From contig NZ_CP114039.1 in assembly GCF_026965535.1 (NCBI RefSeq), positions 434,001 to 498,000 of the forward strand: a DNA stretch of 64,000 nucleotides, given 5' to 3'. The notes beneath the pieces are model-generated. The model was not told where the DNA came from. It saw nothing but the letters and a program-made list of their open reading frames with translations, and ran no database searches. The position numbers and the translations under genes were made by a program. Every line of letters begins with the position of its first letter. Position 1 is the stretch's first letter. The stretch is from Corallococcus sp. NCRR. Lineage in GTDB: Bacteria > Myxococcota > Myxococcia > Myxococcales > Myxococcaceae. Below, piece after piece: positions 6,330-24,297 of the stretch.

Positions 6330-9083
6330 ATGTCTTTCCTGTCGGGTTCCGTCCGCGCCTCGCGCCTGGCCGTGGCCGCGCTGACCTCCCTGTCCCTGAC
6401 CCTGGGAGGGTGCGCCACGCTTCCTCCGCGAGGGCAGGTCGTCATGCGCGACGTGTCCTTCCCCCTGCGTGACTTCCGCATGCCGTCCGGCCTGCGCGTG
6501 GTGGTGGAGCGCGACGCGCGCGCGCCCGTGGTGGCGGTGGTCGCGGTGGTGGGCGCGGGAGGCTCCAGCGACCCGGGCGGCAAGGAGGGGCTGGCGCACC
6601 TGGTGGAGCACCTGGCCTTCCGCGCGCGCCCCGCCAACGGCCCCTCCGTGCAGGCGCGGCTCAACGCCTCTGGCGCGGGGCACTCCAACGCCAGCACCAG
6701 CCTGGACTACACCGCCTACGAGGAGCTCGCGCCCAAGGAGTCGCTGGGCGCGCTGGTGAAGCTGGAGGGGGAGCGGCTGTCGTCGCCGCTCTCCAACGTC
6801 AGCCCGGAGGTCTTCGCGGTGGAGCGCGAGGTGGTCCGCAACGAGCTGCGCCAGCGCAACGAGACGGGCTACGTGGGCCAGGTGTTCAGCTGGGTGCACG
6901 CGGCGTCGTTCCCGGCGGGAGACCCGTACGCGCGGCCCGTGGTGGGTTCGCACGAGTCGCTGTCCGCCCTCACCCTGGCGGACGCGCACCGCTTCGCGCG
7001 CGCCCACTACCGCCCGGACAACGTCACCCTGGTCATCTCCGGGGACGTGGACCTGGCGGAGGTGGAGGCCACGCTCATGCAGAACCTGCCGCCCGCGTGG
7101 GTGGGCACGGGCGCCCCGCTGGCGCTGGACACGCGCATGCCCGCGAAGCGCCCGGAGCCCGCGGCCGCGCCGGTCAGCAAGACGATGCCGGTGTACGCGG
7201 CGGCGGTGCCGTCGCCGGAGCTGTACCTGTCCTGGGTGCTGCCGCGCGCCTTCGACGAGGCCAGCGCCCTGCATGACTTCGTGGGCGTCAGCCTGGACAA
7301 CAACCTCTGGGAGGCGGTGCGCAGCGATGGCGACATCGCGGGCATCTCCACGGGGCTGGTGCCCGGCACGCGCGCGTCGCTGCTCATCGTGCGCGTGCAC
7401 CTGTCGCGCGGGGACCACCCGGAGCGCTCGGCGGAGAAGGTGCTGGACCAGGTGCACAAGACCTGGAGCGGGGAGATCGAGGCCAGCGGCGTGCTGGGCC
7501 AGGAGTTCAACTTCCAGGCCCTGCGCCGCCAGGTGGTGACGAACATGGTGCTGGAGTCGGAGCGGCTGCTGGCGCGGACCCGGAGCCGCGCGCTGCTCAC
7601 CCACTTCACCACGGACGTGCGCTCGTATACGCGCTCGCAGATGGCGCTGATGGGGCTGGGCGGCAGCAAGGTGACGGACTTTGCCTACCAGTGGCTCCAG
7701 CGCGACCGGGCGCACGCCATCCTCGTGCGGCCGGGAGAGAGCGGCACTCAGACGGCGCTCCCCACGCTGGCGAAGCTGCCGGGCGGCGAGCCCGCGGTGG
7801 AGGGCGGCGAGCGCGTCACGCCGTCCATGCTGGCGGCCACCACGGCGCCCGTGCAGGTGCTGAAGCTGGAGAACGGCATGGAGGTGCTGCTGGTGCCCCG
7901 CCCGGGACTGCCGGTGGTGCGCGTGGGCGCGGCGATGGGCGGCGGGACGGCGCACGGGGTGAAGCCGGGCGTGGCGGACCTGGCGAAGTGGGGCTCCTTC
8001 CGCGAGTCGCACTTCGAGGGCCGCCCGAGCGACTGGGGCCTGCACGAGTCCACCCGCACGGCGTTGGACCACGTGCGCGTGGACATGGCCGGCACGGCGG
8101 GCAACGTGGGCAACATGCTGGCGATGCTCGCGGAGGACCTGTCCAGCACCCGCACCTCGGAGGACGTGGTGCGCTACTGGCGCGAGCAGGTGCAGCCGTG
8201 GCGCGAGGCGGTGGACACGCGGCCGGAGGTGCTGGCGCACCGGAACCTGATGCAGGCGCTCTACGGCACGCACCCCTACGCCAACGAGGCCACGGGGGCG
8301 CAGATGGGGCAGGTGTCCTGGTCGGAGGCGCAGGCGTGGTTGGAGGACGTCTACCGCCCGGGCAACACGACGGTGGTGGTGGCGGGCGAGTTCGAGGTGA
8401 AGGACGTGGAGCCGCTGGTGCGCAAGTACCTGGGTGACTGGAGCAGGGGCAAGCCTCAGCCGGTGGCCGTGCCGCCCGCGCCGGCGCTGCCCGCCGCGTC
8501 CGCGAAGGTGAGCACGCTCTTCACCGCGCGCCCCGGGGCCACGCAGGGCCAGGTGCAGGTGGCCTGCCGGCTGCCCACGGCGACGCCGGAGCTGGAGGCG
8601 CGCTACGCGCTGATGGCGGAGCTGCTGGAGGTGGAGGCCTACGACCGGACGCGCTCCGGGACGGGAGCGTCCTACGGCTTCAACGCCGAGCCCTGGATTG
8701 GCCGGGGCGGCGCGGCGCACCTGCTGCTGGGCGGCAGCCTGGATGCGCAGCGGATGAGCGAGGGCGTGGGGTCGCTGCGCGAGACGCTGGCGGCGTTCGC
8801 GAAGGAGGTGTCCGAAAGGGACCTGGCGCATGCGCGCGCGCGGCTGCTGGCGCGGCAGGGGGTGTCGTTCATCTCCACGGATGCGTGGGTGGAGGCGCTG
8901 CTCGAGGCGCGCGTGCGGGGCTTCCCGGTGGAGTCGGTGGCGCAGCGCCCCGCGCACCTCCAGGCGGTGACGGCGGACGCGCTGAAGCAGGAGTTCGCGG
9001 GTTGCCTCCAGCGCCTCGTGGTGAGCGTCACGGGGGATGAGCAGCCCAGCCGCGCCGCGCTCCAGGCGGTGTCGGTGCCGTAG
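6330..9083 (+). CDS. M16 metallopeptidase lipoprotein (fused two-domain)
   Basis: This large M16 (pitrilysin/insulinase clan) zinc peptidase has about 917 residues. The start gives MSFLSGSVRASRL and a lipoprotein signal ending LGGCATLPP; an upstream in-frame extension lacks signal features. The N-terminal half carries the inverted zinc motif HLVEH (in GLAHLVEHLAFRARP) and the distal Glu in EREVVRNELRQR, so it should be catalytic. The C-terminal half repeats the M16 fold (GMEVLLVPRPGLPVVRVG onward) without HxxEH and is the usual inactive partner domain. It therefore carries both halves in one chain, unlike the separate pair at 18.9-21.5 kb. Lipid anchoring points to a periplasmic or outer-membrane peptide-degrading role. 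Confidence 0.92.
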   Translation: MSFLSGSVRASRLAVAALTSLSLTLGGCATLPPRGQVVMRDVSFPLRDFRMPSGLRVVVERDARAPVVAVVAVVGAGGSSDPGGKEGLAHLVEHLAFRARPANGPSVQARLNASGAGHSNASTSLDYTAYEELAPKESLGALVKLEGERLSSPLSNVSPEVFAVEREVVRNELRQRNETGYVGQVFSWVHAASFPAGDPYARPVVGSHESLSALTLADAHRFARAHYRPDNVTLVISGDVDLAEVEATLMQNLPPAWVGTGAPLALDTRMPAKRPEPAAAPVSKTMPVYAAAVPSPELYLSWVLPRAFDEASALHDFVGVSLDNNLWEAVRSDGDIAGISTGLVPGTRASLLIVRVHLSRGDHPERSAEKVLDQVHKTWSGEIEASGVLGQEFNFQALRRQVVTNMVLESERLLARTRSRALLTHFTTDVRSYTRSQMALMGLGGSKVTDFAYQWLQRDRAHAILVRPGESGTQTALPTLAKLPGGEPAVEGGERVTPSMLAATTAPVQVLKLENGMEVLLVPRPGLPVVRVGAAMGGGTAHGVKPGVADLAKWGSFRESHFEGRPSDWGLHESTRTALDHVRVDMAGTAGNVGNMLAMLAEDLSSTRTSEDVVRYWREQVQPWREAVDTRPEVLAHRNLMQALYGTHPYANEATGAQMGQVSWSEAQAWLEDVYRPGNTTVVVAGEFEVKDVEPLVRKYLGDWSRGKPQPVAVPPAPALPAASAKVSTLFTARPGATQGQVQVACRLPTATPELEARYALMAELLEVEAYDRTRSGTGASYGFNAEPWIGRGGAAHLLLGGSLDAQRMSEGVGSLRETLAAFAKEVSERDLAHARARLLARQGVSFISTDAWVEALLEARVRGFPVESVAQRPAHLQAVTADALKQEFAGCLQRLVVSVTGDEQPSRAALQAVSVP

Positions 9084-9095
9084 CGAAGGACGGCC

Positions 9096-9124
9096 CTCCG
9101 TGGGCGCGGCACGCGTCCACGGAG
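9096..9124. terminator. stem-loop terminator after M16 gene
   Basis: An inverted repeat CTCCGTGG/CCACGGAG encloses a second short stem CGCG-GCA-CGCG, giving a stem of about 13 bp with one wobble and a 3-nt loop. It begins 13 nt after the stop of the M16 gene. No clear T-run follows, as is usual in this GC-rich genome. Confidence 0.55.
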
Positions 9125-9212
9125 CCGATGGCGGGGCCCGCCGCCCACCGGTCCCGGGCTTCGCGTCCGGAGGGCATGACCCGCCGGGCCGCGTGCCTCC
9201 GTATGAGGAGGC

Positions 9213-10769
9213 ATGCGAGTCATGGACCTCCGCCGGACGCGGTACCTGCTGGGCGCCCTGCTGTCGTGGGGCGCCGCCGCCTGCCACGGGACGGACGGGC
9301 CCACGTCCCCGTGCGAGGACACGGACTGTGCGGTGCCCGGGCTCACCCGGGCGTTCGAACAGGGCACGCCCTCCACCCAGACACTGGCGCGCGCGGACTT
9401 CGGGGGCCTCAAGGTGCGGCGAGCCTCCGGACGCACCTTCGTACTGGAGACGTCGCGGGACGCGGAAGGCCGGGACACCCGCAGGCTCACCGTGTCCGCA
9501 CCGGACGGTTCGCGGCTGTGGCGGTTCGACGCCACGGCCGGTGACCATCTGAGCGATTTCACCGTGCATCCGTCCGGGGAGGTCACCCTGGGCGTCGAGC
9601 GCACCGGTGCGACAGCGGAGGCCTACGACCTGGTGCGCCTGTCCACCGAAGGCCAGGTGCTGTCACGGCAGCCCCTGCCCACGCCCACGACGGTTCCCGG
9701 CGCCGACCTGGGAGACACCCTCCCCTCCCCCGCGTTCCGCATGAAGTCGCCCTGGATCCACGCCCTCACCGACGGCTGGCTCCGCACGGAGGCGCGCGGC
9801 GAGGACGTGGCCGTGGCCTTCCTGTCGCTCGTGGCCGTCCCGGAAGGCGGACCCACCACCCCGGAGCTGGCGTCAGGCCTGATGACGCTCCAGTGGATGG
9901 ACGGGCGCTACACCGAGCAGTGGACCCGCGTCGTGGACGGACGCCACTCCACGCAGCCGGCCGCCTGGGCCTACGACGAGTTCCGCTGGCGCGAGGCCGC
10001 GCTCCGGCCGCTGCTCGCGGTGGACGCGGATGGGCGGCTGGTGGTGGGGCGCACCTGGAACAGCTCCCGCTGCCTGGCCTCCAGCCGCACGTTCAATGAC
10101 TTCACCGCCGTGCACTGCCGCTCCGGCGACGACGTCACCACGCCCGCGGACACCGAACGGCAGCCCTTCGCCCTGACGGCCTTCACGCCGGTGGGGACGC
10201 GCATCGGGACGCACGTCTTCGTCCCCGCCCGGGCGGCGGAGTTCGTCGTCTTCGACATGGCGGTGCGCGACGGGGAGGTGGCGCTCGCGGGTACGGTGGT
10301 GACGGAGGGCTCGGAGGGCACCATCGCCTGGTACCCGTCCGCGCCGGGCGCGGAGGACCGGATGACGCCCTATGACGGATATCTGGGCGTGCTGTCGCTC
10401 GACTCGGGCGCGCTGCGCTTCGAGCACCGCGTGGACACGGGCCGCGCGGACCACTTCTCCGCGCTGCGCTGGACGGACGCGGGGCTCATCGCCGTGGGCG
10501 CATCCGGCTGGGACCGGTGGCACGGAGGGATGAGCATCTCACGCGGCGCAGGGGCCCTGCTCGCGCTCGCGTCCACCGACGGCCAGACGGTGCGCACGCG
10601 GAAGGCCGGCCCCGAGGGACAGGGCCGGCACTTCCACCTGCTGGGCGTGGACGCGGACGAGGACTCACTGGTGGCGGTGGGGCTCGCGGACGCGCCGATG
10701 ACGCACTCCGGAGACAACGATCACCCGGAGCAGATGACCTTCGGCGGGCTCACGGTGGAGCTGCGCTGA
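9213..10769 (+). CDS. hypothetical lipoprotein, repeat-rich beta protein
   Basis: This 518-residue protein is probably lipid-anchored: its signal peptide ends in WGAAAC. A GAGGAG Shine-Dalgarno lies just before the chosen ATG; a second ATG 9 nt downstream is possible. The mature protein alternates short beta strands and turns, with phrases such as GSRLWRFDATAGDHLSDF, GEVTLGVERTGATAEAYDLVRLSTEG and HFHLLGVDADEDSLVAVGL. This resembles the repeated blades of myxobacterial PQQ-like or seven-bladed beta-propeller lipoproteins. No catalytic motif was recognised. It is convergent with a Cys-rich lipoprotein gene and the two share a small stem-loop. Confidence 0.85.
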   Translation: MRVMDLRRTRYLLGALLSWGAAACHGTDGPTSPCEDTDCAVPGLTRAFEQGTPSTQTLARADFGGLKVRRASGRTFVLETSRDAEGRDTRRLTVSAPDGSRLWRFDATAGDHLSDFTVHPSGEVTLGVERTGATAEAYDLVRLSTEGQVLSRQPLPTPTTVPGADLGDTLPSPAFRMKSPWIHALTDGWLRTEARGEDVAVAFLSLVAVPEGGPTTPELASGLMTLQWMDGRYTEQWTRVVDGRHSTQPAAWAYDEFRWREAALRPLLAVDADGRLVVGRTWNSSRCLASSRTFNDFTAVHCRSGDDVTTPADTERQPFALTAFTPVGTRIGTHVFVPARAAEFVVFDMAVRDGEVALAGTVVTEGSEGTIAWYPSAPGAEDRMTPYDGYLGVLSLDSGALRFEHRVDTGRADHFSALRWTDAGLIAVGASGWDRWHGGMSISRGAGALLALASTDGQTVRTRKAGPEGQGRHFHLLGVDADEDSLVAVGLADAPMTHSGDNDHPEQMTFGGLTVELR

Positions 10770-18888: not shown

Positions 18889-18897
18889 AAGCCAGCG

Positions 18898-20178
18898 TCA
18901 GAGCGGCGTGCTCACGATGCGCACGGAGCGCTCCTCCACGAAGTAGCGGCGAACGAAGCCCTTGAGCACCGCGGGCGTGAGCGGGGGCGGCGGCTGGAGG
19001 AAGCCCAGGTCCGTGCCACCCTCCCGGCGCGGCTCCGAGGCCTCCGCCGCCAGGGCATCCGCCAGCGCCGGGCCCGCGCTCGACAGCCCGTCCACTTCAC
19101 GCCGGCCCCGCTGGGCCAACAGCTTCTGCTCGGCGGCGGCGGGCGGACGCTTCGCCAATGACTCGAAGGTCTCCTGCATCCGCGACGGCAGGAACGAGCC
19201 GTCCAGGGAGCGCGTGTACGCGAACGCCAGGAGCAGGTCGTTGCCGCGCAGCGTGAGGCACCGCACGTCCACGCCGGAGACGATGGGCTCCTTCACGTGC
19301 ACCGCGAGCAGCAGCCGCAGCTCCAGCAGCGCCGCCACCGTCCGGCACGTCGCGCGCGCCTCCCGGGGAAGCGCGTAGCCCAGCGTCACGAAGGTGTTGT
19401 CCGCCCGCGTCTCCTGCTCCACCGGGAAGACGGCCTCCTCCAGCGCGGGCGCCACCCGCTCCTCGGCCAGGGCTGGCGCCAGCCGATAGCCCTCGTCCAC
19501 CAGGCGGCGCGCCTCCTCGCCGTCCACGGCGCCCGTGAAGACGAGCGAGACGTTGGAGGTGAGGTACTCCGACGCGTAGAACTTCAGCACGTCCTCGCGC
19601 GTGATGCGGCCTCGCGAGTCGCGCGAACCGATGAGCGCGTAGGCGGCGGACACGCTGGAGAAGAGGGCCCCTTCAATCTGGCTGCCCAGCAGCGAGTCCT
19701 TGAAGTGGTACGTGCTCTCCGTCTGGATGATGCCCAGCTCGCGGTCCAGCCGCTTGCCGCCGGGGAGCATGGGGCTGGTCACCATGCGCAGCACGTCCCG
19801 GGCCAATGGGACGAACGCGCTCGCGGGCGCATCCAGCATGTACACGGTGGCGTTCGACATCGTGTGGGCATTCAACGTGCCGCCAGCCGCCTCCACGCGC
19901 GCGCGCAGCTCCGGGCCCGCCAGGTCGTGGCTGCCGTGGAACACCAGGTGCTCCACCAGGTGCGCCAGGCCCTCCTTGCCCGGTGGATCATGCGAGGCGC
20001 CGGAGCGCACCACCACGCGCAGCGACGCGGTGTCCGACGTGGGCCGAGGCACCAGCAGCAGCTCCGTCCCATCCACCAACATCTCGGAGGTGACGGCTGG
20101 CGCCGCGGCGGCGGACGGGGACGCGGCGAGGAGCACCAGCCCGAGCAGGGCGGGCTTCCAGGAGAAGGGGCGATGCAT
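18898..20178 (-). CDS. M16 peptidase, catalytic subunit
   Basis: This 426-residue secreted M16 zinc peptidase has a Sec signal (MHRPFSWKPALLGLVLLAASPSAAA). The inverted zinc motif HLVEH occurs in GLAHLVEHLVFHGSHD near residue 75, and the third ligand Glu is in DRELGIIQTESTYHF about 75 residues on. It lacks a second M16 half, so it probably works as a dimer with the product of the preceding gene, which is only 3 nt upstream and lacks these residues. It is the last gene of a three-gene operon. The pair resembles the alpha/beta arrangement of mitochondrial-processing-peptidase-like bacterial enzymes. Its likely task is peptide or signal-fragment degradation in the periplasm. Confidence 0.93.
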   Translation of the reverse strand: MHRPFSWKPALLGLVLLAASPSAAAAPAVTSEMLVDGTELLLVPRPTSDTASLRVVVRSGASHDPPGKEGLAHLVEHLVFHGSHDLAGPELRARVEAAGGTLNAHTMSNATVYMLDAPASAFVPLARDVLRMVTSPMLPGGKRLDRELGIIQTESTYHFKDSLLGSQIEGALFSSVSAAYALIGSRDSRGRITREDVLKFYASEYLTSNVSLVFTGAVDGEEARRLVDEGYRLAPALAEERVAPALEEAVFPVEQETRADNTFVTLGYALPREARATCRTVAALLELRLLLAVHVKEPIVSGVDVRCLTLRGNDLLLAFAYTRSLDGSFLPSRMQETFESLAKRPPAAAEQKLLAQRGRREVDGLSSAGPALADALAAEASEPRREGGTDLGFLQPPPPLTPAVLKGFVRRYFVEERSVRIVSTPL

Positions 20179-20181
20179 GGG

Positions 20182-21468
20182 TTATCTCCGCCGCATCCGG
20201 ACGCCCGCCGTGGAGCGGAGCGGGACGACGCTGGGGGTGAACAGCAGGTGGATGCGGCGGTCCTCGCCCAACCAGCCCCGCACGGACTGCGTGAGGGACT
20301 CCAGCGTGAGGGATGTCAGCGCGGCCTCCAGCTCCGGCGCGTACCAGGCCGGCGAGTGCACGCTCGCCGCGAGCGCGAGCCCCACCTCCGTGGGGCTCCG
20401 GTCGTCCGTCCGCAGCCGCGCGAGCACCTGGGCCCGGGCCTGCGCGAACTCCTCCGCGCTCACGCGCCCCTCGCGCACCGCGCCCACCTCCTCCAGCATG
20501 AAGGGGCCCAGGTCCAGCGCGGACGGGTCCCTGGCGGGCAGCGTCAGCACCAGCTGATCCATCCATGGCGTCAGCACCACGGACGCGTCCTGCGCGTAGC
20601 CCACGCCCAGGCGGCGGAAGCGCTGCTCCAGCCGCTGTCCCAGGAGCGCGCCCACCACCCGCGCCGCCGCGGCCTGCCGCGCGTCCCCCAGCTCGATGGG
20701 GTAGGCCAGCACGTTGATGTCGCTCACCGCCGGGAGCTTGAGCGTCACCGGCAGCTGGGGCGACAGCCGCGTCACCGCCGACGGCGTCCCGCCCTTGTAG
20801 CGGGCCACGGTGCGCTTCAGGGCCTCCACGTCGAAGTCCCCGGCGGCGATGACCACCGCGTTGCGAGGACTCAACGGGCCGGAGAGATAGGCCGCGATGT
20901 CGCGGTCGGAGAAGGACAGCACCGACTGCGCGCTCGGCGGCACGGGGGCCCTGAAGCGCGGCTCCGTGGAGAGCACCACCGCCAGCACGGACTCCAGGAA
21001 GTCGTCCGCGAAGGTGAGCGAGGGGTCCTGTCCGGTGCGCTCCAGCGCGTCATCCAGTCGCGCGGCGTCCACCTGGGGCGAGAGCAGCCGCGGCAGCAGG
21101 TGCTCCGCGAGCGCGTCGAAGTCCTGCCGGGGCGCGATCAGCGTGAAGCCGCTCTGGCGCAGCCCCGTCGACATCGTCAGGGTCGCGTTCGCGCCGAACA
21201 GCTCGCGCACCAGGTCCTCGTAGCGCCCGCGCCGGTTGGCCTCCAGCATGACGTGCTGGGCCGCCCGGGTGAGCCCCACCAGGCCGCCCTCGTCGTAGCG
21301 CCCCACGGTGAAGACGACGTGCAGCGTGGCGCGCTCCGTCCCGGGACGTGGCGCGAGCACCAGGCGCGCGTGCTCCGGCGACTCCCGCGAGCGTTGAACC
21401 TCGAAGGGCGCGGCCGACGCCGCGCTCCAGGCCCAGAGCAGCAGCCCTCCCCAGACCCACGCCTTCAT
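20182..21468 (-). CDS. M16 peptidase homologue, inactive subunit
   Basis: This is a 428-residue secreted M16-fold protein (signal MKAWVWGGLLLWAWSAASA). It aligns with the active subunit downstream (ATLHVVFTVGRYDEGGLVGL, RNAVVIAAGDFDVEAL), but where HxxEH should be it has LTRAAQHVMLEAN, so it cannot bind zinc in the usual way. The start is the ATG that overlaps the previous stop by 4 nt (ATGA), and the next gene begins 3 nt after its own stop, so all three genes are translationally coupled. It probably provides the non-catalytic half of a heterodimer. Confidence 0.9.
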   Translation of the reverse strand: MKAWVWGGLLLWAWSAASAAPFEVQRSRESPEHARLVLAPRPGTERATLHVVFTVGRYDEGGLVGLTRAAQHVMLEANRRGRYEDLVRELFGANATLTMSTGLRQSGFTLIAPRQDFDALAEHLLPRLLSPQVDAARLDDALERTGQDPSLTFADDFLESVLAVVLSTEPRFRAPVPPSAQSVLSFSDRDIAAYLSGPLSPRNAVVIAAGDFDVEALKRTVARYKGGTPSAVTRLSPQLPVTLKLPAVSDINVLAYPIELGDARQAAAARVVGALLGQRLEQRFRRLGVGYAQDASVVLTPWMDQLVLTLPARDPSALDLGPFMLEEVGAVREGRVSAEEFAQARAQVLARLRTDDRSPTEVGLALAASVHSPAWYAPELEAALTSLTLESLTQSVRGWLGEDRRIHLLFTPSVVPLRSTAGVRMRRR

Positions 21469-23483
21469 GGCGCCTCCTGACTGACGACCTGCGCACCGGT
21501 CCCCGTCGCGGGGACCGCCGCGTCCGTCCCCACCTTCACGCGGGGGCCCGCCACCGACTCCTCCACCCGCAGGCCGTTGAGCCCCGCCCGCCGCACGGTG
21601 AGCGCGTAGCGCGCGGCGCCGTCCGCCGTGTCGCGCCGGGGCCAGGCGAGCCGCAGCCGCTGGCCCCACCACTCCAGCGGATGTCCGCCGTACAGCGCCT
21701 CCTCCTCCGCGGGCGCGGAAGCCCCCTGGACCGCCAGGGCCCGCTTCACCCTCACCATGTCCGCCGCGGACTCCCACCGCGCCTCGCGCTCCTCCTCTTC
21801 CTCCGGCCGCGAGTCCTTCTGGGCCAGGGGCGTCCCGCCGCCGTGCACCCGCAGAGGCCGTCCTCCCTGCCACCAGGACAGCTCCTGCCGGTTGCCCCGG
21901 GCGTCGTAGGTGCTCCACTCCCCGTCGCGCAGGCCGCGCGCGTAGTGGCCCTCCACGTGCGTGATGCCGCTCGCGAAGAAGTGGGCGTAGGGGCCCTGGA
22001 GCCGGCCGTCCGCGTACGTCCTGCTCTCCAGCACGCGCCCGTCCAGGGCCAGGTCCTCCACCACGCCTTCCAGCCGCCCCCTGTTGAAGCGGGCGCGGAA
22101 CACCACCGCCTCCGGCATGGACGCGTCGTGGAGGCGCCATTCGCCCACTTCCAGCCCGTTCGCGTACTCACCGTCCGCGAGCAGCCGCCCCTCCCGGTCC
22201 CAGCGCGACCAGCGCCCGTCGCGCCGTCCCTTCGCGTACGCCTCGCGGAAGAGCAACTGTCCCCGCGCGGTCCTCAGCCACGAGGGCCCCGCTGGCGACT
22301 CCAGCACCGTCAGGCAGCGGGACAGCACGTGGCCCCCTGGCGACGAATCGCGCCGCAAGGTGGTCCCGGTGGGACAGGCGTCCAGGCTCCAGCGGTCCGC
22401 CACGAATCCGCCCGCGGCGAGCCCCAGCAGCGCCAGCGCTCCCGCCCCGGCCCAGGAGGACGGCAGCGTCGCCGGGGGGCCCTGCGGCGCGGCCCGGGAG
22501 GCCCGGGGCAAGCCATGCTGTCCCCGGCTCAGCTGGTGGAGGATGCCCTCGCGCATCCACAGCGTCCCGCAGGAGGCGCACGGCACCACCGCGACGCCCT
22601 GGAACACCACCGTCGAGCACGCGCCCCCGCAGGAGGCGCACCTCGCCGGCCTGCCTCCGGGCTCCTCCAGCATCCGGCGCAGCGCATCCGCGCGCAGGCC
22701 GCGCTCGGTGAGGACCTGGTCCTGCTCCCGGGCGGTCAGCAGGTCGCCACCGCAGGCGTCGCAGTGGGCCCCCAGCCGCCCCTCGCTCCGCCACAGCGGG
22801 ACCGCCGCCGGGCAGTCCGGGCAGTCGTAGCCCGCCTCCTGCCGCGCGGCCTCCGGGGCCGCGGCGGCCTCCACGTCCGCCGCCTCCACGCCCACCGCCT
22901 CCGCGTCGCGCCACGTCCACCACACGGCCCTCAGGAAACCCAGTTGCAGGCCCAGGAGCACCGCGTCCACGCAGAGCACGGCCAGACCCCAGCGCGGCGA
23001 GCGCGTGAGGAACTCCGAGGTGAGCAGCAACGCCACCCCGCCCTGAAGCAGCACGATGCCGGACGCGCAGGCCCTCAGCATCCGCGCGCGGGCGTGCGGC
23101 AGCTCGGACAGGACGCTCGCCAGCCGGGGCAGTCCCGCCAGCAGCAGGCCCGCCACCAGCCCCGCCGCCACCGACGCGGGCCGGGACGCGGGAAGCGCGC
23201 CGCGCCCCCGGAGGCCCTGCACCGCCACCGCCAGGAACAGGGCCCACGCGAGCCAGGGCACCAGCGACACCGCGAGCCCCCAGGGCCGGGGCGGCGCGCT
23301 CCACAGCCACGGCCCCAGCACCCAGGCCTCCAGGAACCGGGGCATCACCTCTGGCGAAGCCAGTTGCCCGAGCCGGGCCATCCCGAACGCGCCCATGAAC
23401 AGCAGGGCCCACTTCGCGCCGTCGCGCGTGGCCCCTCCGCCGTTCGCCTCGACGGCGGCCCCCTCATTGACTTGTGAAGACAT
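21465..23483 (-). CDS. zinc-ribbon/MORN-repeat membrane protein
   Basis: This protein of about 672 residues is first in the M16 operon. The chosen start (MSSQVNEG) has a GAGGGG Shine-Dalgarno about 3 nt upstream; the frame extends 12 codons further. Residues about 25-200 hold several transmembrane helices. Then come two zinc-ribbon pairs (CPDCP...CDACGG near 240-275 and CASCGGAC...CASCG near 305-330), another helix near 385 and, from about 440, repeats of the MORN/YwqK kind (GRRDGRWSRWDREGRLL, GEYANGLEVGEW, GRLQGPYAHFFASG, GLRDGEWSTYD). The C-terminal 100 residues are a beta domain. It may recruit or present partners to the M16 pair; no enzyme motif is visible. Confidence 0.85.
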   Translation of the reverse strand: MSSQVNEGAAVEANGGGATRDGAKWALLFMGAFGMARLGQLASPEVMPRFLEAWVLGPWLWSAPPRPWGLAVSLVPWLAWALFLAVAVQGLRGRGALPASRPASVAAGLVAGLLLAGLPRLASVLSELPHARARMLRACASGIVLLQGGVALLLTSEFLTRSPRWGLAVLCVDAVLLGLQLGFLRAVWWTWRDAEAVGVEAADVEAAAAPEAARQEAGYDCPDCPAAVPLWRSEGRLGAHCDACGGDLLTAREQDQVLTERGLRADALRRMLEEPGGRPARCASCGGACSTVVFQGVAVVPCASCGTLWMREGILHQLSRGQHGLPRASRAAPQGPPATLPSSWAGAGALALLGLAAGGFVADRWSLDACPTGTTLRRDSSPGGHVLSRCLTVLESPAGPSWLRTARGQLLFREAYAKGRRDGRWSRWDREGRLLADGEYANGLEVGEWRLHDASMPEAVVFRARFNRGRLEGVVEDLALDGRVLESRTYADGRLQGPYAHFFASGITHVEGHYARGLRDGEWSTYDARGNRQELSWWQGGRPLRVHGGGTPLAQKDSRPEEEEEREARWESAADMVRVKRALAVQGASAPAEEEALYGGHPLEWWGQRLRLAWPRRDTADGAARYALTVRRAGLNGLRVEESVAGPRVKVGTDAAVPATGTGAQVVSQEAP

Positions 23484-23685
23484 TTCCCCTCGGGATGAGA
23501 CGGCGCGCAGTCTAATCACATCCCGTTGTCATCCGGAAAACCCTCCCCGAGAAACCCCGCCTCAGGGCAGGGATTGACCCGGCCGACCCGCCTTGCCTAT
23601 ACGTCCGCGCTCCGAGGGGGGACGGGCATGGGAGCCCGAGCCCTGATGTCTTCCAGACCTGTCTTTGATTTCAGGGAAACAATCC

Positions 23686-24297
23686 ATGTCATTGCTCCGC
23701 AGCATCTGTCCGTGGGTCCTGGGTGGCATTTGCCTCATGGCTACGACAGAGCCCCAGGCCCAGGGACGAAATGGTTCACGTGTGTCCCATTGGAAGGCGT
23801 TGCCCGGCTCCAGCGTGAAGATGGGGGACGCTACCCGTGAGGGTTCCGGGAGCGTGCTGCCGGACAAGCAGGCCTTCTGCCAGGACGTGAAGGCGGTGGT
23901 GCGCACGGTGGGCAAGGGCTTCAAGCCGCTGCGAGGGCAGGCCCAGCGGGGCAACACGGAGGAGCTCTCCATCTGGGAGTCCACGAAGAACATCCAGGAC
24001 CTGCGCTGCTCCGTCTACCAGACACGGGTGCTGGGGGATTACGTGTACTGCGTCCAGACGAACCAGGAGTGCTCGCCCGCGCAGGACCGCTTCCACCTGC
24101 TCTCCAGCTACCTGATGAGCACGTGCTACCCGGGCTGGAGCTGGCAGGACTCCCGGCTGGACTCGTGGGACACCTATTCACAGCGCCGGATGGTGATGGC
24201 CACCAACGAAGAGGGGCTGCGCATCTCGCTGGAGATGGGCCGGGCGAAGGACTCCTACTCCCGCTGTGACGTGACGCTCACCTTCGAGCTGCTCTGA
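23686..24297 (+). CDS. secreted hypothetical protein
   Basis: This predicted secreted protein has about 203 residues. The start chosen (MSLLRSICPWVLGGICLMA) opens a typical signal peptide and has an AGGGAA Shine-Dalgarno about 9 nt upstream. The mature part has six Cys residues, arranged CQDV, RCSVY, YCVQTNQEC, STCYPG and SRCDVTL, suggesting disulfides. GLRISLEMGRAKDSYSRCDVTLTFELL ends the protein with two likely beta strands. No family was recognised. It stands alone, divergent from the M16 operon, and its 3' end overlaps a convergent small membrane gene by 43 nt. Confidence 0.78.
   Translation: MSLLRSICPWVLGGICLMATTEPQAQGRNGSRVSHWKALPGSSVKMGDATREGSGSVLPDKQAFCQDVKAVVRTVGKGFKPLRGQAQRGNTEELSIWESTKNIQDLRCSVYQTRVLGDYVYCVQTNQECSPAQDRFHLLSSYLMSTCYPGWSWQDSRLDSWDTYSQRRMVMATNEEGLRISLEMGRAKDSYSRCDVTLTFELL

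Follow-up and report, generated by a model that had tools for sequence, protein, structure and literature searches.

The 64,000-nucleotide stretch of Corallococcus sp. NCRR DNA that we analyzed (hereafter the window) contains three closely spaced minus-strand genes, for a membrane protein and two M16 peptidase subunits, and next to them a fourth gene of opposite orientation. The features discussed below are as follows.

23483-21465, minus strand: gene for the leader membrane protein, 672 aa
21528-21716, minus strand: C-terminal W-x-x-R domain of the leader, residues ~590-652, from alignment and a search of 195 genomes
21468-20182, minus strand: middle gene, for the inactive M16 subunit, 428 aa, with a signal-peptide-like N terminus and without HxxEH
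20178-18898, minus strand: last gene, for the active-type M16 subunit, 426 aa, with a signal-peptide-like N terminus, HLVEH at residues 73-77 and E154
23686-24297, plus strand: divergent gene encoding a 203-aa secreted protein, lying inside the insert
18889-24297, no strand: four-gene cassette insert of ~5.4 kb, edges uncertain by ~10 bp

The leader and middle genes overlap by 4 nt, and a gap of 3 nt separates the stop of the middle gene from the last gene. The original prediction had described three genes that overlap or lie within 3 nt, and its coordinates and gene order proved correct; the W-x-x-R domain, the divergent gene and the grouping of all four genes into one insert were absent from it. 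The host genome, a single contig of 9,787,125 bases, has 15 matches to PF00675, so that the cassette is one among several M16 loci, and a profile search finds one copy of the W-x-x-R domain in it. A second PF00675 match within the window (6495-6911, 1.1e-11) lies about 12 kb from the cassette.

Both M16 proteins open with stretches that read as signal peptides in the sequence. Among Pfam matches at E <= 1, the middle protein has PF05193 alone (3.2e-7) and no PF00675, and the last protein has PF00675 at 6.4e-16. The latter carries the motif H73-L-V-E76-H77 together with E154. Motifs and Pfam matches thus agree with the earlier proposal that a middle gene devoid of HxxEH is paired with an active last gene.

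We then looked at the distribution of the cassette in the phylum (genomes and loci are designated by our own G and L numbers). A six-row profile of the inactive subunit, with nine candidates scored per genome, matches 13 of 195 genomes at E <= 4.4e-59; six of these 13 are the profile rows themselves and seven are new (G126, G130, G131, G144, G155, G113 and G127). The next genome follows at 6.6e-15. When the threshold is set at E <= 1e-12 the count rises to 23, the ten genomes beyond the 13 being at 6.6e-15 or weaker. One genome, G016, matched the inactive subunit of the window at 5.7e-9 and was added to the profile after its neighbouring genes showed a leader and an active subunit. G058, with a similar match (5.0e-8), had no such leader in its neighbourhood and was left out as generic M16.

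The original prediction depended on the membrane gene being kept next to the M16 pair in other genomes, and this is what we observe: at every one of the 13 loci a leader adjoins the inactive-subunit gene (12 of 12 without G016). Eight loci have the leader upstream on the same strand, with a 4-nt stop/start overlap in 8/8, and five have it in divergent orientation, with 59-109 bp between the starts in 5/5. For these figures, starts were picked by eye at signal-peptide-like ends; for the inactive subunits of G155 and G016, a simple gene caller had chosen more internal starts. The leader of G113 is truncated by a contig end, and the contig of G127 stops short of the active subunit. That one gene content is found in two arrangements argues for a functional tie. 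The three genes also diverge together: pairwise distances correlate with r = 0.98 for inactive and active subunits (12 genomes), 0.92 for inactive subunit and leader (11 genomes) and 0.95 for active subunit and leader (10 genomes), with a Mantel p of 0.0002 each, a correlation that is also expected from shared descent alone. A pattern scan of named GTDB genomes for the leader and inactive subunit yielded no relative; such a scan detects only close relatives, and records close to the host genome may be missing from it.

Catalytic motifs are strictly conserved across the cassettes. The HxxEH...E signature is retained in 12/12 active subunits (the G127 contig ends before this gene), and R-x5-Y is retained in all 13 inactive subunits (R285-x5-Y291 in the window protein), none of which (0/13) has HxxEH at the aligned place. 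In the active subunit, residues C278 and C307, which perhaps form a disulphide, are retained in 13/13 rows, including that of G183, a genome discussed below. The zinc motif and distal Glu thus reside on one chain, with a homologous partner that has no zinc motif; R-x5-Y lies in the C-terminal half of the inactive subunit, and its motif and position suggest the structural R/Y pair of M16B; the two chains are separate, of ~50 kDa (428 and 426 aa), and encoded by separate genes. On these grounds we predict that the pair forms an active, M16B-type heterodimeric peptidase. The iron-piracy M16 enzymes of the FusC/PqqL type are single chains encoded with a TonB-dependent receptor. Here we find two chains, and no receptor family among the Pfam matches of the four insert proteins, which sets the cassette apart from that type.

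The assignment to M16B follows the description of heterodimers in the part of PMC12731061 available to us, where the zinc motif is on one chain and the R/Y pair in the other half. The mitochondrial processing peptidase alpha/beta likewise combines an active subunit with a homologue without the zinc motif; however, it has no R/Y pair according to the available text (PMC12731061, section 3.2), whereas R-x5-Y is invariant in the inactive subunits of the cassette. Other parallels are SPH2681/SPH2682 of Sphingomonas sp. A1 (PDB 3amj, 3ami) and TTHA1264/TTHA1265, which also consist of two chains with the zinc motif on one; positions 49-410 of our inactive-subunit profile match 3amj chain C, the active subunit, over most of its length, at E 8.7e-14. 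The available portion of PMC12731061 mentions no membrane leader or W-x-x-R partner for either of these pairs. The same portion describes another M16B pair, AlbF/AlbE, as dedicated to the maturation of a bacteriocin, subtilosin A. In the cassette, by contrast, no bacteriocin precursor was recognised. We know of no counterpart in the AlbF/AlbE system of the cassette's leader or fourth gene.

The leader had been described as a membrane protein with helices, two zinc ribbons and MORN repeats. In the window protein we do find hydrophobic segments, the last membrane helix spanning about residues 344-362, and four CxxC motifs (residues 221, 241, 282 and 302) that make up two CxxC-pair ribbons; MORN-like repeats and the W-x-x-R domain follow the last helix. 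However, both named elements fall below the curated Pfam cut-offs in this protein: the PF13453 ribbon scores 17.1 of the required 22 bits and PF07661 13.0 bits against a gathering score of 29.6. The ribbon passes in G155 (23.2 bits), and the PF07661 gathering score is reached by two of the eight other cassette leaders scanned, a set that includes G095 and G183 (G051, 30.7 bits; G043, 51.4 bits).

Neither element is constant from one cassette to the next. Four CxxC motifs precede the last helix in the leaders of the window, G155 and G144; two are located near the N terminus in G051, G043, G130, G131, G126 and G016; and none was found in G028, G127 and G095. The leaders of G028 and G127 have instead a TPR-like N terminus (below Pfam cut-offs) and one helix, and their MORN part was called from similarity to other leaders, without a Pfam hit. 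The leader of G095 is minimal, reduced to a single helix and the end domain with a proline-rich linker, and shows no MORN repeat. Ribbons and MORN repeats, by which the original prediction had defined the partner of the M16 pair, therefore do not define it. What is common to all leaders uncut by contig ends is a membrane anchor and the C-terminal W-x-x-R domain of ~50 residues.

No protein in the other 15 genomes of the genus matches the leader over its full length, and among the 98 genomes searched most leader matches span the MORN stretch only. MORN-like repeats are shared with the bacterial MORN_2 (YwqK-like) proteins, and further proteins that match this stretch are found in relatives; the W-x-x-R domain and the linkage to M16, however, belong to the cassette leader. 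One such gene that we inspected, in G092, has no M16 match beside it. We found no paper in the open-licence literature that joins MORN repeats, M16/insulinase and myxobacteria or Myxococcus.

The W-x-x-R domain has the consensus L-x-x-G-x(5)-W-x-x-R ... L-x(3)-R-A-x(3)-G in ten aligned rows, eight with WW and two with SW. When the ten rows were compared singly to Pfam, two families were matched by one row each, with a best E of 0.027, and a profile search of PDB sequences gave a best E of 0.4; none of these matches is significant, and by sequence comparison with Pfam and the PDB the domain is undescribed so far. A structure predicted from the window sequence alone had a mean pLDDT of 46.9 and was discarded.

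A domain profile built from ten leaders already known beside the M16 pair matches 16 of 195 genomes at E <= 3.1e-6, ten of the 16 being by construction the profile rows. The 16 comprise the 13 genomes with an inactive subunit plus G139, G022 and G183. All loci but that of G139, whose contig starts inside the leader, can be assessed, and 15/15 adjoin an M16 sequence; outside the profile rows the proportion is 5/5 (G131, G095, G113, G022 and G183). Weaker matches in G083, G045 and G044 (E 0.002-0.004) and a second one in G095 (0.007) were taken as chance.

These results bear on a simple alternative, in which the M16 pair alone performs envelope protein quality control or peptide scavenging and the leader is a mere co-transcribed neighbour. 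SPH2681/SPH2682, which are listed with general peptide substrates in the available part of PMC12731061, speak for such a role. But the genes stay linked in both arrangements and at divergent loci, and no W-x-x-R match (E <= 3.1e-6, 195 genomes, 15 of 16 loci assessed) is located away from an M16 sequence, and we hold this explanation to be improbable.

Two loci depart from the usual organization. In G183 (L127:7971-9640), a 113-aa lipoprotein-like protein with the W-x-x-R domain is encoded directly before an M16 protein that reads DMTAH at the zinc motif, and no inactive subunit was found. Since an M16 protein without the zinc motif and without an inactive subunit can accompany it, the domain is not strictly tied to an active heterodimer. 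In G022 (L126, ~8446-9337), we observed the remnant of a deleted cassette, consisting of the 3' end of the active-subunit gene and pieces of the leader. Its active-subunit end is 91% identical to that of G043 over 170 residues, and it occupies the same chromosomal place as the intact G043 copy.

In the window, the four genes behave as a single unit. The left flank of the cassette occurs in each of the other 15 genomes of the genus, with the right flank next to it in 11 of them; in the six of those 11 that we compared, the flanks are 31-45 bp apart, whereas positions 18889-24297 separate them in the window. The inactive subunit is present in only one of the 16 genomes of the genus. Gain of the cassette in the window lineage is the simpler reading, with repeated loss as the alternative; loss by deletion is indeed seen in G022. 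No tRNA gene is present within the window and a single direct repeat, of 8 nt, was detected across the insert edges, so that no integration mechanism is seen. Base composition was uninformative on a foreign origin: the 4-kb blocks covering the cassette have a G+C of 0.718 and 0.739, and the other blocks of the window range over 0.655-0.724.

Such a distribution could suggest a role in antagonism, immunity or defence, the cassette destroying incoming peptide toxins or maturing a secreted toxin. It is patchy at both scales (13/195 genomes in the phylum, 1/16 in the genus), at the site in the window it is either wholly present or wholly absent, and a decayed copy persists in G022. However, none of the four proteins has a PADLOC hit at E <= 0.01, as would be expected of a known anti-phage system, the inactive subunit has no plasmid match, and no toxin or bacteriocin family appears among the Pfam matches of the four proteins. 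A defensive role thus seems to us quite unlikely.

The fourth gene (23686-24297) has homologues in divergent orientation beside the cassettes of G155 and G144, with 49 and 56% identity, respectively; six cysteines are invariant in the three proteins. A search of 96 genomes of the family, outside which G095 and G113 lie, returned four strong matches, all in cassette-bearing genomes: three beside the cassette and one elsewhere in its genome (G126). No homologue was found at E 1e-8 beside the other cassette loci. The gene is thus a lineage-specific companion, and its product may be considered a candidate fourth component in the window lineage. A weak fifth match, in G007 (E 2e-6; L132:1423-3378), corresponds to the end of a larger protein in which we noted by eye a HELAH motif, and which has no Pfam hit. 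We made no use of the structure predicted for the fourth protein from the window sequence alone, for which the best of five models had a mean pLDDT of 59 and the others 32-38. This model has no Foldseek match at E <= 0.001; its best VIA-align match is the DNA polymerase gamma accessory subunit (Z 7.0), followed by DcrB, SciW/EagT6, PA94 and MTC28 at Z 5.1-6.4. At most, these matches hint at a DcrB/Mog1-like fold.

The cassette is a conserved variant of the M16B pair that includes an undescribed domain, and we propose the following mechanism for it. Signal peptides would export both M16 chains, and a clam-shell heterodimer would form in the periplasm; its zinc site (HxxEH...E) would come from the last gene, and the active site would be completed by an R/Y pair from the middle gene. 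The leader would sit in the inner membrane with its last helix running from inside to outside, and its exported C-terminal W-x-x-R domain would dock the heterodimer. This topology is suggested by the single-helix leaders and, in MORN-type leaders, by positive charges that precede the last helix and a cysteine pair that follows it, both noted by eye; six hydropathy segments, as counted in 7/14 leaders, would with a cytosolic N terminus put the C-terminal part inside. MORN repeats, where present, might add a surface for contact with the substrate or the envelope. The predicted complex of the three products would trim or degrade exported peptides or small proteins, and where the divergent gene accompanies the cassette, as it does in the window, G155 and G144, the secreted protein could be a client or regulator of the complex. 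We give about an even chance to the core of this proposal, that is, a membrane-tethered two-chain M16B peptidase acting on exported peptides. In favor of tethering we count two minimal leaders: that of G095, in which a single helix and a linker carry the domain, and the lipoprotein-like protein with the domain in G183.

The same leaders weigh on another view, in which the pair is regulated rather than tethered. The W-x-x-R domain would then act as an inhibitor or gate, for example as a pseudo-substrate entering the M16 chamber, and the cytosolic ribbons or TPR-like parts would sense a signal, turning the cassette into a signalling device. This would fit the variation of the N-terminal parts of the leader (ribbons, TPR-like, nothing) against a constant C-terminal domain, as well as the persistence of the domain beside an M16 protein without the zinc motif in G183. 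However, no sensory part is recognisable in these minimal leaders (G095 and G183) and inhibition is itself conjectural, and we judge regulation unlikely.

Returning to the tethered peptidase, a bolder version would make W-x-x-R a dedicated docking or gating module of M16 heterodimers, and the cassette a horizontally moving, membrane-tethered peptidasome with its own secreted client or regulator in one lineage; we put this forward as a possible but rather doubtful extension. To our knowledge, the role or location has been established for only a few of the M16 pairs of bacteria. The constant domain of the partner protein offers a handle here, as it predicts the location of the pair and indicates the protein to use in pull-downs and the genomes worth comparing. 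Should docking prove true, the M16 chamber would be recruited to the membrane by a dedicated adaptor, and this would be a first function for the undescribed domain.

Finally, two recurrent neighbours were considered and left out of the cassette parts. A reverse-transcriptase gene adjoins the cassette in G051, G043 and G022, which belong to one genus (in G043 at L062:308-1732, PF00078 at 8.2e-21; homologues in L061 and L126). The other is a caspase-like/DUF4384/sigma-factor operon (L062:7450-10140 and L103:1800-4698, from a Pfam scan of the G043 copy alone), which converges on the cassette in G043, in G022 and, at 30-34% identity, in the distant G113.
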